From positions 1-34,051 of the IMG/VR virus record IMGVR_UViG_3300005613_000231: a stretch of DNA of 34,051 bases, one strand, 5' to 3'. A model generated the notes under the pieces. The model was not told the origin of the DNA. It made no database searches and worked only from the letters and a program-made list of their open reading frames with translations. Source of the stretch: a virus. This document shows, in pieces, positions 2,579 to 17,438 of the stretch; positions within the stretch are counted from its first letter, which is position 1, and every line of letters begins with the position of its first letter. The position numbers and the translations under genes are program-made.

Positions 2579-2895
2579 TGCGCGCGGCGTGGGTTGCGCT
2601 GGGATTCGCCATCGGCCTCGTTCCGAGTGCGGCTGCTGCGACCGGCGCGGCTGCCGACGAGTGGATCGCCGTGGTCATGTCGGCCGGCGCCATGCTGGCC
2701 GGCGGCGGCTCGCTGTGGAAGGTCGGCAGCGTCGCGCGTGAGTTCGGCGCGCTCGAGCAACGGGTCAAGACGATGGACGCCGAGGTCACCCGGCTGCGCG
2801 ACCGCGCGGTAATTGGAGACGTCTACGGGGCGGACATGGGCCGCGTGGAAACTCGGCTTCGCGCGCTCGAGCGCAAGACCGGGATTGAGTCGTGA
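2578..2895 (+). CDS. Small membrane/coiled-coil protein of lysis cassette
   Basis: A 105-residue protein with two hydrophobic segments at residues about 3-24 and about 29-48 (DEWIAVVMSAGAMLAGGGSL), followed by a charged helical region (LEQRVKTMDAEVTRLRDRA and METRLRALERKTG-like heptads). The first segment may be a signal peptide, leaving one membrane anchor. The layout resembles small phage proteins that anchor a coiled coil at the membrane. TGATG coupling to the upstream gene places it in the same transcript as the endolysin. Exact role unknown. Confidence 0.65.
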   Translation: MRAAWVALGFAIGLVPSAAAATGAAADEWIAVVMSAGAMLAGGGSLWKVGSVAREFGALEQRVKTMDAEVTRLRDRAVIGDVYGADMGRVETRLRALERKTGIES

Positions 2896-2906
2896 GGAGG
2901 TGTGCG

Positions 2907-3263
2907 GTGCGCTGTCTCATCGTTGACGACTACCCGCCAAAGCTGCATCTGTTGCGGCACATCATCCGGCAGTTGAGGCCCGACGCGGAATTGGTGACAG
3001 CCGAGTCGTTCACACAGGGTCGCGGGCTGATTATCAACGGCGGACCGTGGGACGTTGCGTTTTTCGACAACCGGCTGCACGACGGGTCGGGGATGGCGCT
3101 GCTGCGGCTCGCCCGAGAGCGACAGATCCCCGCTCTCGTGGTGTCCGCACACGACCCCGCGACCGTCGAGGAGATCCGCGAGGTGGTGCCGGTAAACGGC
3201 GTTGACCTCCTGCGCCAGCGCATCACGGGCGCGTTCTACGCGGCGGAGTTGTGTGATGGCTGA
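2907..3263 (+). CDS. Stand-alone CheY-like receiver domain protein
   Basis: A 118-residue protein, the size of one response-regulator receiver domain. It shows beta1 with the acidic pair (CLIVDDY, D7-D8), beta3 with the phosphoacceptor position (WDVAFFDNRLHDGSG, D54) and beta4 with the switch Ser (LVVSAHD, S80). The conserved Lys of beta5 is not in its usual context (NGVDLLRQR), so the switch may be altered. There is no output domain. The GTG at 2907 is preferred over the GTG at 2892 because AGGAGG at 2895-2900 lies six bases before it and the resulting protein starts at beta1. It sits among small lysis-region genes, which is unusual for a phage. Confidence 0.78.
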   Translation: MRCLIVDDYPPKLHLLRHIIRQLRPDAELVTAESFTQGRGLIINGGPWDVAFFDNRLHDGSGMALLRLARERQIPALVVSAHDPATVEEIREVVPVNGVDLLRQRITGAFYAAELCDG

Positions 3264-4408: not shown

Positions 4409-4985
4409 GGTCCTGGCCCGGGGCGAACCTCAGCTTGGTCGGCCGCACCTCCAGCGAGACGGGGCCAAAGTGCAGGCCGCCCGACTCCAGCGGGAGCGGG
4501 GCGTGCCACTTGGTCCACTCCGATGGCTCGCCGAGCGCGTCGACCACCGTGATGGTCCCGTCCTCGGCCACTTCTCGACGGTGCTCGACCTCGCGCCAGC
4601 GGTGGCGGACCTCGGTGTCCACGGTGAGCGTCATCACGTTGTTCTCGGGCCACCACCTCGGCCGATGCCTGTCCCGGTCGTAGCCCCACTCGACGGCCCA
4701 TCCGGTGACTCGCATCTCCGTGCAGCAGGCCGTCTTGGTATCGTCGGCCCACGCCCTCTTAGCGGCATCGGGCTGCTTCCTCTCGTTCCACCGCTCGGCC
4801 CTGGCGGTCATCATGTCGGCCAACCGCTCGGCTACGGCCTCGGCCGCCGCACGCGCCGCGCCCTCCGTCGTGTAGAGCCACGACAACTCGGGGTGCTCGC
4901 CGGCTCGGATGAGCGGGTGACTGCGCGGCTCGCGCACTTCCCACAGGGTTCGTTCGATTCCGTCCATGAGCGGTCGGTCACTCAC
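4386..4985 (-). CDS. Hypothetical protein of recombination operon, 199 residues
   Basis: The GTG start overlaps the RecT-like stop (GTGA); an ATG six codons further in (4967) is the alternative. The N-terminal half is helical and Ala/Arg-rich (GAARAAAEAVAERLADMMTA); the C-terminal half is beta-rich with many Trp and charged residues (WWPENNVMTLTVDTEVRHRW, HAPLPLESGGLHFGPVSLEV). No known domain recognised. Its position next to recT and the exonuclease suggests an early role in DNA metabolism or host takeover, by context only. Confidence 0.68.
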   Translation of the reverse strand: MSDRPLMDGIERTLWEVREPRSHPLIRAGEHPELSWLYTTEGAARAAAEAVAERLADMMTARAERWNERKQPDAAKRAWADDTKTACCTEMRVTGWAVEWGYDRDRHRPRWWPENNVMTLTVDTEVRHRWREVEHRREVAEDGTITVVDALGEPSEWTKWHAPLPLESGGLHFGPVSLEVRPTKLRFAPGQDLAGWATE

Positions 4986-5671
4986 CGCCCCAGCCTCCGC
5001 ATGATGTTGGCGTTGCCGCCGGACCGCTCGGGCGTGCGGCGGGTGCTGGTCGACTCGGTCGGCGTCAACTCGTCCACCGTGTAGACCCCGGCGAGGACGT
5101 CGGGATACACCGCGCGCGCCAACGACGTCGAGCACCGCGCGCGCAGCATCGCGGCCGGGTGCGACTTCCAGTTGCCCTTGCCGACCAGGCCGGCGGTCCG
5201 CGCCTGCTCGATCGTGTAGCTCATGCGCGTCGGCTCCGGGTCCTCGACGCGCTGCGTCTCGTAGACCGCGACCGTGTCGGTGCTCTCGACGAGCCGAAAG
5301 TAGCGGCAGGCCGGCGACGACTTCGCCGCCGCGGTCATCATCTCCGCTGACAGCGTCGGTCGTCCCTCGATGACGTGGATGGACCGCAGCGACTGCATCG
5401 GGGCGATGCCCATCTCCGCGCCGGTCAGGATCGCCATCAGAATGTTGGGCGGGTTGCCGGCGAAGGCCCGCGGCACCAACTGGCTGTTGCTGAGGATGTC
5501 CGCGAAGCGCATCGCCTCGTCGAGGGACATTGTGGTCCCCCGCATCACCGGCTCGACTCGGGCCGGCATCACCTCGTGGTCCTGCGGCGGCATCGCCTCG
5601 ACGACCTCGCCGAGTTCCGCCTGCACCATCTCGCCGCTCTGCGGCGCGTCCTCGTGGTTCTCGTCGCTCAT
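4982..5671 (-). CDS. RecT-like single-strand annealing protein
   Basis: A 229-residue protein. Residues about 45-115 (SLDEAMRFADILSNSQLVP, ILMAILTGAEMGIAPMQSL, VIEGRPTLSAEMMTAAA) follow the RecT-family pattern, in which an annealing core is preceded by a conserved helix describing substrate-binding positions. The later KSHPAAMLRARCSTSLARAV and YPDVLAGVYTVDEL segments also recur in phage RecT relatives. It would coat 3' single strands made by the neighbouring exonuclease and promote annealing during replication or repair. ATG start shares one base with the exonuclease stop (TGATG). The acidic N-terminus (residues 1-40) is probably disordered. Confidence 0.8.
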   Translation of the reverse strand: MSDENHEDAPQSGEMVQAELGEVVEAMPPQDHEVMPARVEPVMRGTTMSLDEAMRFADILSNSQLVPRAFAGNPPNILMAILTGAEMGIAPMQSLRSIHVIEGRPTLSAEMMTAAAKSSPACRYFRLVESTDTVAVYETQRVEDPEPTRMSYTIEQARTAGLVGKGNWKSHPAAMLRARCSTSLARAVYPDVLAGVYTVDELTPTESTSTRRTPERSGGNANIMRRLGR

Positions 5672-6651
5672 CACTTCTCCCGCTTGACCGTGACGCGCAG
5701 CGTGCGCGCCGCCTGGCCGATGTACCGGCACGCCTCGTAGGCTTCCGGGTATTCCTGCTCCAGTTGCTCGAGGTCGACCCGCTCGGGCGGCGACCCGTCC
5801 TTCCAGGTGACCTTGATGCCGCTCCCCGAGGACTCCTCGGAGTCGCCCATCAGCGCGCGCAGCTCGTTGGCCGCCTGCTTCACCCGCGCGTCGATGCGCT
5901 TCGACTCGTCGCGGAGCTCGTCGTATCGCCGCGCCGCCGCGGCGAGTTCGTCGTCCATCGGACGATCGCCCACCGGGGCACCTGCGGCGACGGTGAGCGC
6001 CTGCGTGCACGCCTGCGACGACTCGACGGGCGGCGGCTCTCCACCCACGACGTGCTTCTGCCACCACTCGCCCGCCACCTCGAGCAGGCGGTCGGAGAGC
6101 TCCGGGTCCCGCTCCATCGTGTACTCGCGGATGGAAGTTCCGCGGTAGAGCACCACCAGCACGCCGCGCGGCAGGCCGGTGACCGCGAGCCCCCAGGCCA
6201 ACTGGACCTGGTACGCCTCGGGCACGTTGCCCTCGCCGCACGTCGAGCCGGTCGGCCCCCAGTCCTCGCCGTAGCCGGCGGTCACCTTGCCCTCGTAGAG
6301 CATGCGCGGGTCGATGGCGCCGAGCTGCCCGCTGCCGTCGTGCTCAAAGCCGTCCGGCGAGACGAACGCCCAGGGGTGATCGTCGTGCCGCGCAATGACG
6401 TTGTCCATCCGGCGCAGAAACGTCTTGTTTCGGCGCTCCCACTCCATTGCGACCCACGCTTCGAGTCCGCTTCCGAGGTCCATCGCCTCGTTGCGATTCT
6501 CGGGCAGCGCCAGCCCGCGCTTGGACGCCCACACGGACCAGGGCGTCGCCCACTTGGACGCACCGAGAATCCCCGCGATGTCGGTCCCGCCGAGCCCGCG
6601 CTTGCGCGCCTCGAGCCAGTCCAGTCGGGTGTCGTATCGTTCGAGGATCAC
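5671..6651 (-). CDS. YqaJ-family PD-(D/E)XK recombination exonuclease
   Basis: A 326-residue protein. The N-terminus has the YqaJ signature RKRGLGGTDIAGILG (16-30) followed by TPWSVWASKRG. The catalytic positions look intact: D100 in FVSPDG and E120-x-K122 in IDPRMLYEGKV, with a downstream Q-motif helix (EAYQVQLAWGLAV). C-terminal residues about 230-285 form a coiled coil common in phage YqaJ proteins. The enzyme resects double-stranded ends to give 3' tails for the RecT-like partner encoded next. The gene overlaps both neighbours, so expression is coupled. Confidence 0.87.
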   Translation of the reverse strand: MILERYDTRLDWLEARKRGLGGTDIAGILGASKWATPWSVWASKRGLALPENRNEAMDLGSGLEAWVAMEWERRNKTFLRRMDNVIARHDDHPWAFVSPDGFEHDGSGQLGAIDPRMLYEGKVTAGYGEDWGPTGSTCGEGNVPEAYQVQLAWGLAVTGLPRGVLVVLYRGTSIREYTMERDPELSDRLLEVAGEWWQKHVVGGEPPPVESSQACTQALTVAAGAPVGDRPMDDELAAAARRYDELRDESKRIDARVKQAANELRALMGDSEESSGSGIKVTWKDGSPPERVDLEQLEQEYPEAYEACRYIGQAARTLRVTVKREK

Positions 6652-7175: not shown

Positions 7176-7322
7176 ATGACCACGAGACGACGACGCGCCG
7201 AGCTGCTGCGGCAGCTGGCCGGCAAGAGCGGCGAAGACGTCCGCCGGATGCTGCTCGAGCAGGCGAAGCGGGACGCGGAGCGACGGGCCGATCGGGACCG
7301 AGACGCCGAGGCGCCCGAGTGA
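7176..7322 (+). CDS. Small basic/helical protein, first gene of replication operon
   Basis: A 48-residue protein (begins MTTRRRRAELLRQLAGKS, ends DRDAEAPE) with strongly charged helical sequence. A GGAGA ribosome site lies 11 bases before the ATG. Its stop overlaps the GTG start of the initiator gene (GTGA), so it may serve as a leader cistron coupling translation of the initiator. No family recognised. Confidence 0.6.
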   Translation: MTTRRRRAELLRQLAGKSGEDVRRMLLEQAKRDAERRADRDRDAEAPE

Positions 7323-8065
7323 CCGACAAGACCAGCGGGCCAGCCTGGTCGTGGTGGGTGCGCGACGAGTGCACCGGGCTCTCGCCGTCTGCGCGGCTGC
7401 TGCTCTACGCCCTCGCGTCGCGAGTGGGCGCAGACGGGCGGGCGTTCCCATCCCTGTCGACGATGGCGGCGGATACCGGCCTGCACCGGTCCACGATCGT
7501 GCGAGCGGTCGCCGAACTGGAGGGCGCCGGGGCGGTCCGCGTCGAGCGCGTCACGGGAAGTCGATCTCGGTACACGCTGACCCTCGAACCCGTCGCACCA
7601 CGCGACCGGTCGCACAGTGGAACCGGTCGCACCACGCGACGGGGGGGGTCGCACAGTGCGACGGGGGGGGTCGCACGGTGCGACCCAAAGAGAACAATGA
7701 AGAGAACAAGGAAGAACCCAGTCCCGCGCGCGCACACGCGAGAAGGCGCCGAGGTCGTTCCGATCCAACCGTGTGTCGCTCAGGACCCGCCGGACGGCAT
7801 GCGACTGCTCGGCGAGCTCTCGAAGGTGCTCACGAAGCGACGGCCGTGGACCTACAACGAGGAGACCAACGCCGCGCAGCTGCTGCAGCAGTACGGGCTC
7901 GACGCCTGCCTCGAGGTGGTCAAGACGATGGATGCGGCCGACTCGCCTGTCGCGATGTTGCGGCGTAGGCTGGAGAAGCGAGGCAACGGGCGTCCGGGCG
8001 GGAAGTCGCCGAGCGACATGACGGACGCCGAGTTCCAGCAATGGATGCGGGAGACACGACAGTGA
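7319..8065 (+). CDS. Lambda O-like winged-helix replication initiator
   Basis: A 248-residue protein. Residues about 14-92 form a HTH_36-type winged helix (SARLLLYALASRVGADGRAF, LSTMAADTGLHRSTIVRAVA, GAVRVERVTGSRSRYTL). The linker (about 92-125) is encoded by repeated GTCGCAC...GCGAC iterons and an A-rich stretch, followed by a C-terminal helical domain (LLGELSKVLTKRRPW, TNAAQLLQQYGLDACLEVV). DNA-binding domain, internal iterons and the helicase gene downstream match the organisation of lambda O/P, so the protein probably binds its own gene as origin and recruits helicase. GTG start by GTGA overlap. Two runs of eight G lie in the linker, a potential slippage or sequencing hazard. Confidence 0.8.
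   Translation: MTDKTSGPAWSWWVRDECTGLSPSARLLLYALASRVGADGRAFPSLSTMAADTGLHRSTIVRAVAELEGAGAVRVERVTGSRSRYTLTLEPVAPRDRSHSGTGRTTRRGGSHSATGGVARCDPKRTMKRTRKNPVPRAHTREGAEVVPIQPCVAQDPPDGMRLLGELSKVLTKRRPWTYNEETNAAQLLQQYGLDACLEVVKTMDAADSPVAMLRRRLEKRGNGRPGGKSPSDMTDAEFQQWMRETRQ
7592..7684. repeat. Five iterons of a replication origin inside the initiator gene
   Basis: Five copies of a 15-bp near-palindrome GTCGCAC(A/C)(G/A)(T/C)GCGAC begin at 7592, 7609, 7626, 7648 and 7670. Copies 1 and 3 are identical (GTCGCACCACGCGAC); copy 2 has a degenerate right arm (GTGGAAC); copies 4 and 5 are perfect or nearly perfect dyads (GTCGCACAGTGCGAC, GTCGCACGGTGCGAC). Spacing is 17, 17, 22 and 22 bp, roughly two helical turns. 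Runs of G8 separate the last three copies. Confidence 0.8.
7687..7717. other. A-rich tandem 12-mer, candidate DNA-unwinding element
   Basis: Immediately after the last iteron, AGAGAACAATGA (7689-7700) is repeated as AGAGAACAAGGA (7701-7712). The stretch is about two-thirds A+T with all A on one strand, in DNA that is otherwise very GC-rich. Position and composition match the AT-rich unwinding segment next to the iterons of lambda-type origins. Confidence 0.6.
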
Positions 8066-8397
8066 TGGATGATGCAAAGCGGCGAGAACTGGGCGAGCGG
8101 CTGTCGGGGGCATGCGGGTGGGACGACAGAAAACGCATCGCAATCGGCGTCGTATGGACAAGCGCCGACGGTCGCATTGTCCCCAATGTGCGCGACGGCG
8201 GCACGATGCGCGCCGCGCTGGAATGGGCTCGGGAGGTGACGGGGCGCCAGTGGCTGTCGGTGTGCGCGGGAGTGCTCGGCGCCGGCTGGGTCGTCGTTGA
8301 CGATTGCGGGGTCGTCGAGGGATGCGACCAGTTGCACGCGACCGAAGCCGAAGCGCACGTCGCCCTCGCCGAGTGGGCCGCGGAGTTTCGCAAGTGA
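8065..8397 (+). CDS. Phage protein of the HATEAEA-tail family, paralogue
   Basis: A 110-residue protein. It carries GRIVPNVRDGGTMRAALEWA, WLSVCAGVLGAGWVVVDD and a terminal HATEAEAHVALAEWAAEF helix, the same order of motifs as the leftward gene at 3579-3941. Function unknown. The ATG at 8065 shares a base with the initiator stop (TGATG); a GTG at 8062 is an alternative. Placement between initiator and helicase suggests expression at the onset of replication. Confidence 0.7.
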   Translation: MDDAKRRELGERLSGACGWDDRKRIAIGVVWTSADGRIVPNVRDGGTMRAALEWAREVTGRQWLSVCAGVLGAGWVVVDDCGVVEGCDQLHATEAEAHVALAEWAAEFRK

Positions 8398-9692
8398 GCG
8401 CAGAACGATTCCTGATTGCGTCTATCCTGGCCGCCCCGGCGACGATCCACAGCGTCCGAGGGCGCGTGCCGGTGGTCGCCATCTCCACGCCGGACCTGCG
8501 GCGCGTCTACGCCGCGGCGGTCGAGCTCGCCGAAGACGGTCAGGTCCCGAGCGTCGCCGCGCTGGTCAGCGTGAAGGGCTTCGACAACGGGCGCCTCGTC
8601 GAGATCGCGATGGCGGCGGACGACGGGCGCGACGCGACTCAACTTGCGGAGCTCGTAGCGGGCGCGCACCTCGGCCGACGACTCCAGGCCATCGCGGCGA
8701 ACGCAGCGATCGACCTGTCGACGGTCGAGCCGCAGCGCGCGAAGGGCTTAGCCAGCGACCTCATCGCGGCGATCGTCGGCGAGCTCACCGCAGGCGGGGA
8801 CGCTGGGCACATGGTCACGATGCGCGAGGCGGTCGCGACGGCCATCGGGGAGATTCGGGACGCCTTCCGCCGCCGAGACGCGGGCGAGCCGCCACGCGGG
8901 TACACCACCGGGCTCCGCAACCTCGACGACATGCTCGGAGAGGGCGGCCCGCTGCCCGGCCAGTTGATGTTCATCGGCGCCGGACCGGGAACCGGCAAGA
9001 CTGCGATGGCGCTCGGCATGATACGTGCCGCGGCTGCGCAGCGACCGACCCAGGCGCATGTGTACCTGACGGGAGAGACATGGGCCGCGCAGCTCGCGCG
9101 GCGGCACATCGCTGCGGGGTCTGGCGTCAGGATGCAGCAGCTGCGGGCGGACCGGACCGCGACCGCCGACGAGGTTGGGGCGCGCATGCACTCGTGGATG
9201 CAGCGGGACCGCGCGGTCCCCGACAACATCTTGGTGGTGGACAAGCCGAAGCCAGGAGTCGGCGACGTGCTCGCGGCCATCTACGCCGCTCGCGCTCGGT
9301 TCGACCTTGTCGGCATGGTGGTGGTGGATCATCTGCACCTGATGCGGCACCGGAACGGCGAGCACGACGAGCCCGCCATCCGGCACACCATCGAGAGCTT
9401 GCACGCCATCGCGCACCAGGAGCGGCCGGCGCTGGTCATCCCTGCGCAGTTGAACCGCTCGAGGAAGGACCACGCGGGCGTGCCGCCGATGACCACGATT
9501 CGAGGCGCGGGCGCCGTCGAGGAGTTCGCGCACCAGGTGCTGATGATGGCGACGGACGATCCGCACAGCGACGAGCGCACCATCATGGCGAACATCGATA
9601 AGAACCGGGACGGAAGGATGGGGCCGCTGCGGTTCCGGTTTACGGGCTCAACACAGCGGTTCCGCGAAGCGGGAGATGACTACGATGGATAA
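8394..9692 (+). CDS. DnaB-type replicative helicase
   Basis: A 432-residue protein. An N-terminal helical domain (about 1-135) is followed by a RecA-like ATPase: Walker A GAGPGTGKT at 195-203, Walker B LVGMVVVDHLHLM (D-H-L-H-L-M in place of the usual D-Y-L-Q-L-M), and VIPAQLNRSRKDH, the counterpart of the DnaB Q-L-N-R motif. PPMTTIRGAGAVEEFAHQVL matches the conserved G-(S/A)-x-x-I/V-E motif. It unwinds the phage fork and is presumably loaded by the adjacent initiator. GTG start through GTGA overlap. Slightly shorter than cellular DnaB (about 470). Confidence 0.9.
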   Translation: MSAERFLIASILAAPATIHSVRGRVPVVAISTPDLRRVYAAAVELAEDGQVPSVAALVSVKGFDNGRLVEIAMAADDGRDATQLAELVAGAHLGRRLQAIAANAAIDLSTVEPQRAKGLASDLIAAIVGELTAGGDAGHMVTMREAVATAIGEIRDAFRRRDAGEPPRGYTTGLRNLDDMLGEGGPLPGQLMFIGAGPGTGKTAMALGMIRAAAAQRPTQAHVYLTGETWAAQLARRHIAAGSGVRMQQLRADRTATADEVGARMHSWMQRDRAVPDNILVVDKPKPGVGDVLAAIYAARARFDLVGMVVVDHLHLMRHRNGEHDEPAIRHTIESLHAIAHQERPALVIPAQLNRSRKDHAGVPPMTTIRGAGAVEEFAHQVLMMATDDPHSDERTIMANIDKNRDGRMGPLRFRFTGSTQRFREAGDDYDG

Positions 9693-17051: not shown

Positions 17052-17438
17052 ATGGGCGATCCGCAGAAGATGAGCTACATCGCGGGTGAGGCGATGACCG
17101 CGCCCCGGGGCCTCCCGGTGAAGGTCAGCGCGGCCCGCACCGTCGTGCTGTGCGACAGCGGCGCGAGCGGCGAGGAGTCCATCGGCGTCATCGATCAGGA
17201 CACCGACGTCGCCAACGGCGGGGAGTTGACCGTCGCGGTACTCGGCACGCCCCGGCAGTACAAGGCCGGCGCCGCCATCACCGCGGGGACGCACCACTTC
17301 CTGATGACCGAGACCGCGACCGGCCGGGTCATCCCGGCGACCAGCGGCAACGAGGCCTGCGCCTACTTCTGCGGCCTGCAGGACGCGGCGGACGGCGACC
17401 TCGTCTACGCGATCCCGTTCCGCTACTCGGTCCCCTGA
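17052..17438 (+). CDS. Capsid decoration protein, DUF2190-like
   Basis: A 128-residue, beta-rich protein (SYIAGEAMTAPRGLPVKVSA, VVLCDSGASGEESIGVIDQD, ITAGTHHFLMTETATGRVIP). The pattern of an N-terminal strand followed by repeated G-x-x-V elements, and position between scaffold and major capsid genes, match DUF2190 cement proteins that stabilise the expanded capsid. ATG starts one base after the protease stop. Confidence 0.75.
   Translation: MGDPQKMSYIAGEAMTAPRGLPVKVSAARTVVLCDSGASGEESIGVIDQDTDVANGGELTVAVLGTPRQYKAGAAITAGTHHFLMTETATGRVIPATSGNEACAYFCGLQDAADGDLVYAIPFRYSVP

Follow-up and report, generated by a model that had tools for sequence, protein, structure and literature searches.

A probable phage replication origin within the linker-coding part of a winged-helix initiator gene, and a candidate second sequence signal in origins of this type

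Why should a viral gene for a winged-helix protein carry within its own coding sequence five similar 15-bp repeats that run directly into an A-rich tandem repeat? The gene in question lies in a 34,051-nucleotide stretch of viral DNA (IMG/VR record IMGVR_UViG_3300005613_000231), the whole of which we refer to as the window, and a preliminary description made from the letters alone had proposed that the repeats form a lambda-type replication origin. Judging from the sequence features assembled here, positions 7592-7718 are very probably a phage replication origin located in the linker-coding part of the initiator gene and working as lambda ori does within gene O.

The gene (7319-8065, plus strand) has a GTG start and encodes 248 residues, and its assignment as an initiator draws on Pfam, PHROG profiles and an AlphaFold model. 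The Pfam HTH_36 profile (PF13730) matches with an E-value of 2.6e-14 and 53.2 bits, relative to a curated cut-off of 25, and three PHROG replication-initiation profiles match as well: 270 (2e-12), 6643 (4.7e-12) and 391, labelled 'O-like' (6.3e-10). The AlphaFold model, built from 28 sequences, displays a confident winged helix up to about residue 90, with pLDDT >90 across most of the domain, and the structural matches of this domain are winged helices with Z of ~9-11. The DNA-binding domain thus delimited by pLDDT and structural matches spans residues ~8-90 (7340-7588, plus strand) and includes the recognition helix LHRSTIVRAVAELE; it is followed in the model by a disordered linker at residues ~100-158 and then by a C-terminal helical region of moderate confidence. 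It is iterons 2-5 and the A-rich tandem that encode the disordered stretch, in agreement with the proposal that the repeats occupy the linker-coding part of a winged-helix initiator gene. A tblastn comparison of the protein with annotated phages returned no match at 1e-5.

The five iterons all lie on the plus strand. Copies 1 (7592-7606) and 3 (7626-7640) read GTCGCACCACGCGAC, copy 2 (7609-7623) reads GTCGCACAGTGGAAC with a degenerate right half, and copies 4 (GTCGCACAGTGCGAC, 7648-7662) and 5 (GTCGCACGGTGCGAC, 7670-7684) are the only full palindromes. Four of the five match the consensus GTCGCACNNNGCGAC exactly, copy 2 having two mismatches, and this consensus differs from the iterons of lambda, as had been proposed. 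The coordinates and the start-to-start spacing of 17, 17, 22 and 22 bp were also confirmed, and the five copies form the sole cluster in the window, where lone sites with 2-3 mismatches are common. The description of the repeats as near-palindromic applies to copies 4 and 5, which are symmetric at 14 of 15 positions, but not to copies 1-3, which are symmetric at 10 of 15 and have a good left half only. A lone site with one mismatch, GTCGCACAGCACGAC, lies remote from the cluster on the minus strand (17142-17156) and may be a chance occurrence. The shift in spacing from 17 to 22 bp had been ascribed to runs of eight G, and two such runs are indeed present, at 7641-7648 and 7663-7670. In the 58 initiators described below, the iteron regions contain an excess of runs of at least five G or C (97, as against 59 after shuffling and 9 in upstream coding DNA), which may reflect spacing, slippage or four-stranded DNA.

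All three reading frames are used by the five iterons, and a repeated peptide therefore cannot explain their common sequence. The in-family conservation test consists of one pair, the window and L002, the one close relative found: only 1 of 126 sites differs over 7592-7717, compared with 49 of 618 in the rest of the gene (Fisher p=0.0014), so that the iterons are kept in this relative, as an alignment was expected to reveal for a genuine origin. The sole difference within the iterons and tract is the free central base of iteron 5. This comparison supports the view that iterons and tract are under selection at the DNA level.

Directly 3' of the iterons, the A-rich tandem 12-mer was found as described, at 7688-7717 (AAGAGAACAATG / AAGAGAACAAGG / AAGAAC). 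Its GC content is 37.5%, compared with 75% for the iterons, and it occurs once in the window, where shuffling predicts 0 occurrences. By nearest-neighbour energy, the least stable 30-mer of the 34 kb begins at 7687. Given this low stability, the uniqueness of the tandem and the GAACC arrays in relatives, we consider 7685-7718 (plus strand, AAGAGAACAATG/AAGAGAACAAGG/AAGAACCC) to be a probable unwinding element. Boxes of the form GAAC[A/C] start at 7692, 7704 and 7714, giving the series GAACA-12 bp-GAACA-10 bp-GAACC. The tandem looks like a degenerate form of the strand-specific GAACC array considered below, and its placement in that class is a judgement because two of its three boxes read GAACA and only the last reads GAACC.

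A helicase gene was expected downstream, and a DnaB-like replicative helicase gene was found at 8394-9692 on the plus strand (Pfam DnaB_C, 1e-31; NCBIfam phage_DnaB at 4.8e-37, under the cut-off of that model). It is followed by a RusA-like gene and then by packaging and head genes. RecE-like exonuclease and RecT-like annealing genes occupy 4982-6651 on the minus strand, divergent from the rightward replication operon; the intergenic DNA between the two, near 7.1 kb, is unstable. The suggested check by GC skew gave a mixed outcome: the skew does shift around 7 kb, but this is also where the genes change direction, so that the skew is not independent evidence for an origin and was dropped as such. 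As to a DnaA-dependent or plasmid iteron origin, no exact TTRTCCACA box occurs in the window, and the one-mismatch sites closest to the iterons, at 8153 and 8177, are >430 bp away.

If the repeats are binding sites for the initiator, their sequence should vary with the part of the protein that reads them. We gathered 85 winged-helix initiators by protein profile from phages and the genomes of two phyla, of which 58 were left once those more than 70% alike had been removed; it is possible that not all of the 58 are phage initiators. Among the 54 with repeated 6-mers, iteron similarity tracks recognition-helix identity (partial r=0.27, Mantel permutation p=0.0005, computed without tree correction) and is not correlated with the rest of the winged-helix domain (p=0.54). 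Repeats are individually significant by shuffling in only 31 of the 58. Iterons of the GTCGCA type are found mainly with helices resembling [LMY][HND][RK]x[ST][VI]xR, a group that could be strengthened by initiators that came into the set via their iteron DNA. A scan of viral and genome contigs with the iteron DNA only also led to many HTH_36-like initiators with iterons right after the winged helix, examples among distant winged-helix genes being L004, L006, L008, L009, L013, L027, L031 and L034, the last retrieved with a GTTGCAC variant of the pattern. Together, these data provide indirect evidence that each initiator may read its own iterons via its winged helix. Hits to the iteron pattern in L018, L019, L022-L024, L029 and L030 had no initiator-like protein and seem to be unrelated repeats or chance matches, and a scan with the SfV protein yielded near-identical copies only and was left out.

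Several loci recovered in this survey depart from the usual arrangement. L020, L021 and L025, from rumen Verrucomicrobia/Kiritimatiellae bins, have 3-4 copies of GTCGCAC-type iterons and no clear GAACC array; in L020 the iterons come after a short, truncated winged-helix reading frame. The origin possibly lies outside an intact gene in these three. The initiator frame breaks in or just after the iterons in L049 (Aeromonas phage 2_D05, 1201-1943, where the initiator is annotated as two genes), in L026 (Xanthomonas bromi, about 2854-3252) and in L143. Repeat-driven frame change and split initiators are both possible readings of these broken frames.

The word GAACC recurs downstream of the winged helix across the 58 initiators, with 102 occurrences compared with 37 after shuffling and 14 in equal-length upstream coding DNA, while no such excess is seen for its reverse complement (17 compared with 13). 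Of the spacings below 60 bp, 38 of 52 are 10-13 bp. Frames 0, 1 and 2 hold 52, 21 and 29 boxes, and more than one frame is used in 24 of the 29 genes with multiple boxes. Strict arrays, which have a composition of 42% A and 12% T, are present in 23 of the 58 initiators, where shuffling predicts 1.0; the remaining 35 of this diverse set lack a strict array, and some of them have variants.

The strongest test of this element is the reverse search, in which three-box GAACCNTCA arrays were sought in viral contigs by DNA alone. Sufficient upstream sequence was available for 106 hits, and 79 of these lie 3' of a winged-helix domain, at a median of 156 bp; of 511 positions drawn at random from the same loci, 1 does so. 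Array hits lacking a winged helix are mostly GGAACC/GTAACC low-complexity repeats or repeats coding for Pro-Glu. Seven three-box loci, including L294 and L373, are unexplained, no winged-helix gene being detected upstream on the same strand. The arrays adjoin varied modules, namely a P-like loader in MD8, a primase/helicase in SF6, and a DnaB-type or annotated helicase in the window and ZF40. The word appears to be common to many HTH_36 initiators regardless of their iterons or helicase genes. This pattern suggests that two signals may operate in such origins: repeats that correspond to each protein's recognition helix, and beside them a GAACC tandem repeat that probably marks the strand-opening site. 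No published GAACC origin element was found in the literature searched, a search that covered few subscription journals.

How far, then, does the likeness to lambda extend? Iterons within the initiator gene, the unstable tract and the downstream helicase gene were all found, but the protein is a member of HTH_36 and not of the lambda O family. PF04492 (Phage_rep_O) matches lambda, P22 and HK544 at ~1e-33 or better but does not match the window protein up to E 0.1, and a comparison of the HTH_36 and Phage_rep_O profiles aligns 38 columns only, with a probability of 68%. The lambda-type reading is thus well supported in the sense of 'works like', not in the sense of Phage_rep_O membership. In a comparison of ten phages of the lambda-O family, whose iterons are of several kinds, the word ACAAAAGA occurs at the corresponding place in eight, twice in seven of them, and GAACC occurs there in none of the ten; ACAAAAGA, which serves as a lambda-O criterion by observation in this analysis rather than by publication, is absent from the window. 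GTGAC-type iterons are present in Escherichia phage PhiR12_4 (lambda-O) as well as in Vibrio phage D62 (HTH_36), each of which has the tract word of its own family. The tract word thus seems to go with the family of the initiator, not with the iteron or the helicase gene. We accordingly put forward, as a tentative proposal that we would doubt slightly more readily than we would back, a two-word code for HTH_36 initiators. In it, helix-matched iterons would be combined with a strand-specific GAACC(R)TCA array, shared family-wide and repeating every 10-13 bp, and some conserved feature of the initiator scaffold would read this array in single-stranded form. Lambda-O initiators would use ACAAAAGA, a second family-wide word, in the same place, independently of iterons and helicase genes.

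The main competitor of this proposal accepts the iterons and the origin and holds that the GAACC-type array is merely an A-rich, T-poor melting tract with no sequence-specific reader. The A and T content of the arrays fits this idea, opening alone would favour low stability, and the copy in the window is degenerate. GAACC is, however, not the word of minimum stability; its two C, its strand and its 10-13 bp period are retained in GC-rich as well as AT-rich phages, and a different word is kept in lambda-O phages. We therefore consider a plain melting tract unlikely, though it deserves to be taken seriously.

Two further readings would remove the origin itself from this site. The iterons could be operators, with the winged-helix protein acting as repressor or modulator of its own operon and replication starting elsewhere. 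Such a role would suit a fold that resembles MarR/SlyA/CodY-type regulators, and palindromic repeats are what dimeric repressors would be expected to bind, but the sites lie inside the gene right after the domain and next to an unstable tract, PHROG profiles name the protein a replication initiator, a DnaB gene follows, and annotated phage relatives are called O-like or replication proteins. Operators are accordingly an improbable explanation. Still harder to credit is the notion that the repeats have no function as DNA and were produced by selection on the protein or by simple expansion of repeats in the linker. The linker is predicted to be disordered and GC-rich runs do lie between the iterons; against this, the DNA of the window is read in all three frames and the boxes of relatives in several, the array is strand-specific, and the iterons track the recognition helix.

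A replication origin in the linker-coding part of the gene is thus the reading we prefer, and a plausible sequence of events can be outlined for it. The initiator, probably as a dimer, would bind each palindromic iteron via its winged helix, as the correlation across initiators indirectly suggests. The assembled complex, together with negative supercoiling, might then open the low-stability tract at 7685-7718. One of the opened strands, with GAAC[C/A] boxes every 10-12 bp, would be held sequence-specifically by the initiator, by analogy with RK2 TrfA and lambda O, and the C-terminal part of the initiator would recruit the phage DnaB-type helicase, as gene order hints. Stx-phage O proteins bind iterons and also single-stranded AT-rich DNA (PMC7466680), plasmid Rep proteins bind one strand of the DNA unwinding element (DUE) in a sequence-specific manner (PMC4081077), and lambda is a further precedent (PMC5043065). 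What the present analysis shows is the sequence conservation, the low stability and the helix-iteron correlation; the biochemical steps are all inferred.

Origins inside initiator genes are known already, and so are iterons that differ from phage to phage within such genes (PMC8022706). Repeats of the opening region have been described as varying between replicons (review, PMC10797057). If the two-signal proposal is true, a word that persists in widely differing initiators and hosts would be a simple origin marker for unannotated phage genomes, and would provide a handle on how initiators lacking an ATPase domain open DNA and hold one strand. The correlation between iteron and recognition helix would likewise help to predict which iterons an initiator binds.

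Among known systems, lambda (ori in gene O) and P22 (gene 18) share with the window a winged-helix initiator gene whose middle part carries palindromic iterons with an unstable tract directly 3' of them, a helicase or loader gene coming next; they differ in protein family (PF04492), iterons and tract word (ACAAAAGA in eight of the ten lambda-O family phages). In the available part of a study of Salmonella phage L (PMC8022706), the authors infer an origin in the O-like gene 18, with 11-bp repeats of its own, and report different iterons for lambda, P22 and L; the repeat is other than that of the window, and that part describes no second common element. For mycobacterial prophages, an origin upstream of or within repA has been suggested (PMC7157519). 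The initiators of SfV, MD8, ZF40 and Salmonella phage SF6 share the HTH_36 winged-helix family of the window, with repeats right after the domain in most of those examined and GAACC boxes 3' in several, whereas their iterons and recognition helices differ and the window has GAACA/GAACA/GAACC in place of clean GAACC. Finally, RK2 is a plasmid whose origin is not in an initiator linker and involves host DnaA, but its oriV, like the window, combines iterons and tandem 13-mers in the DUE with a winged-helix initiator, TrfA, which binds one strand of that element sequence-specifically (PMC4081077).
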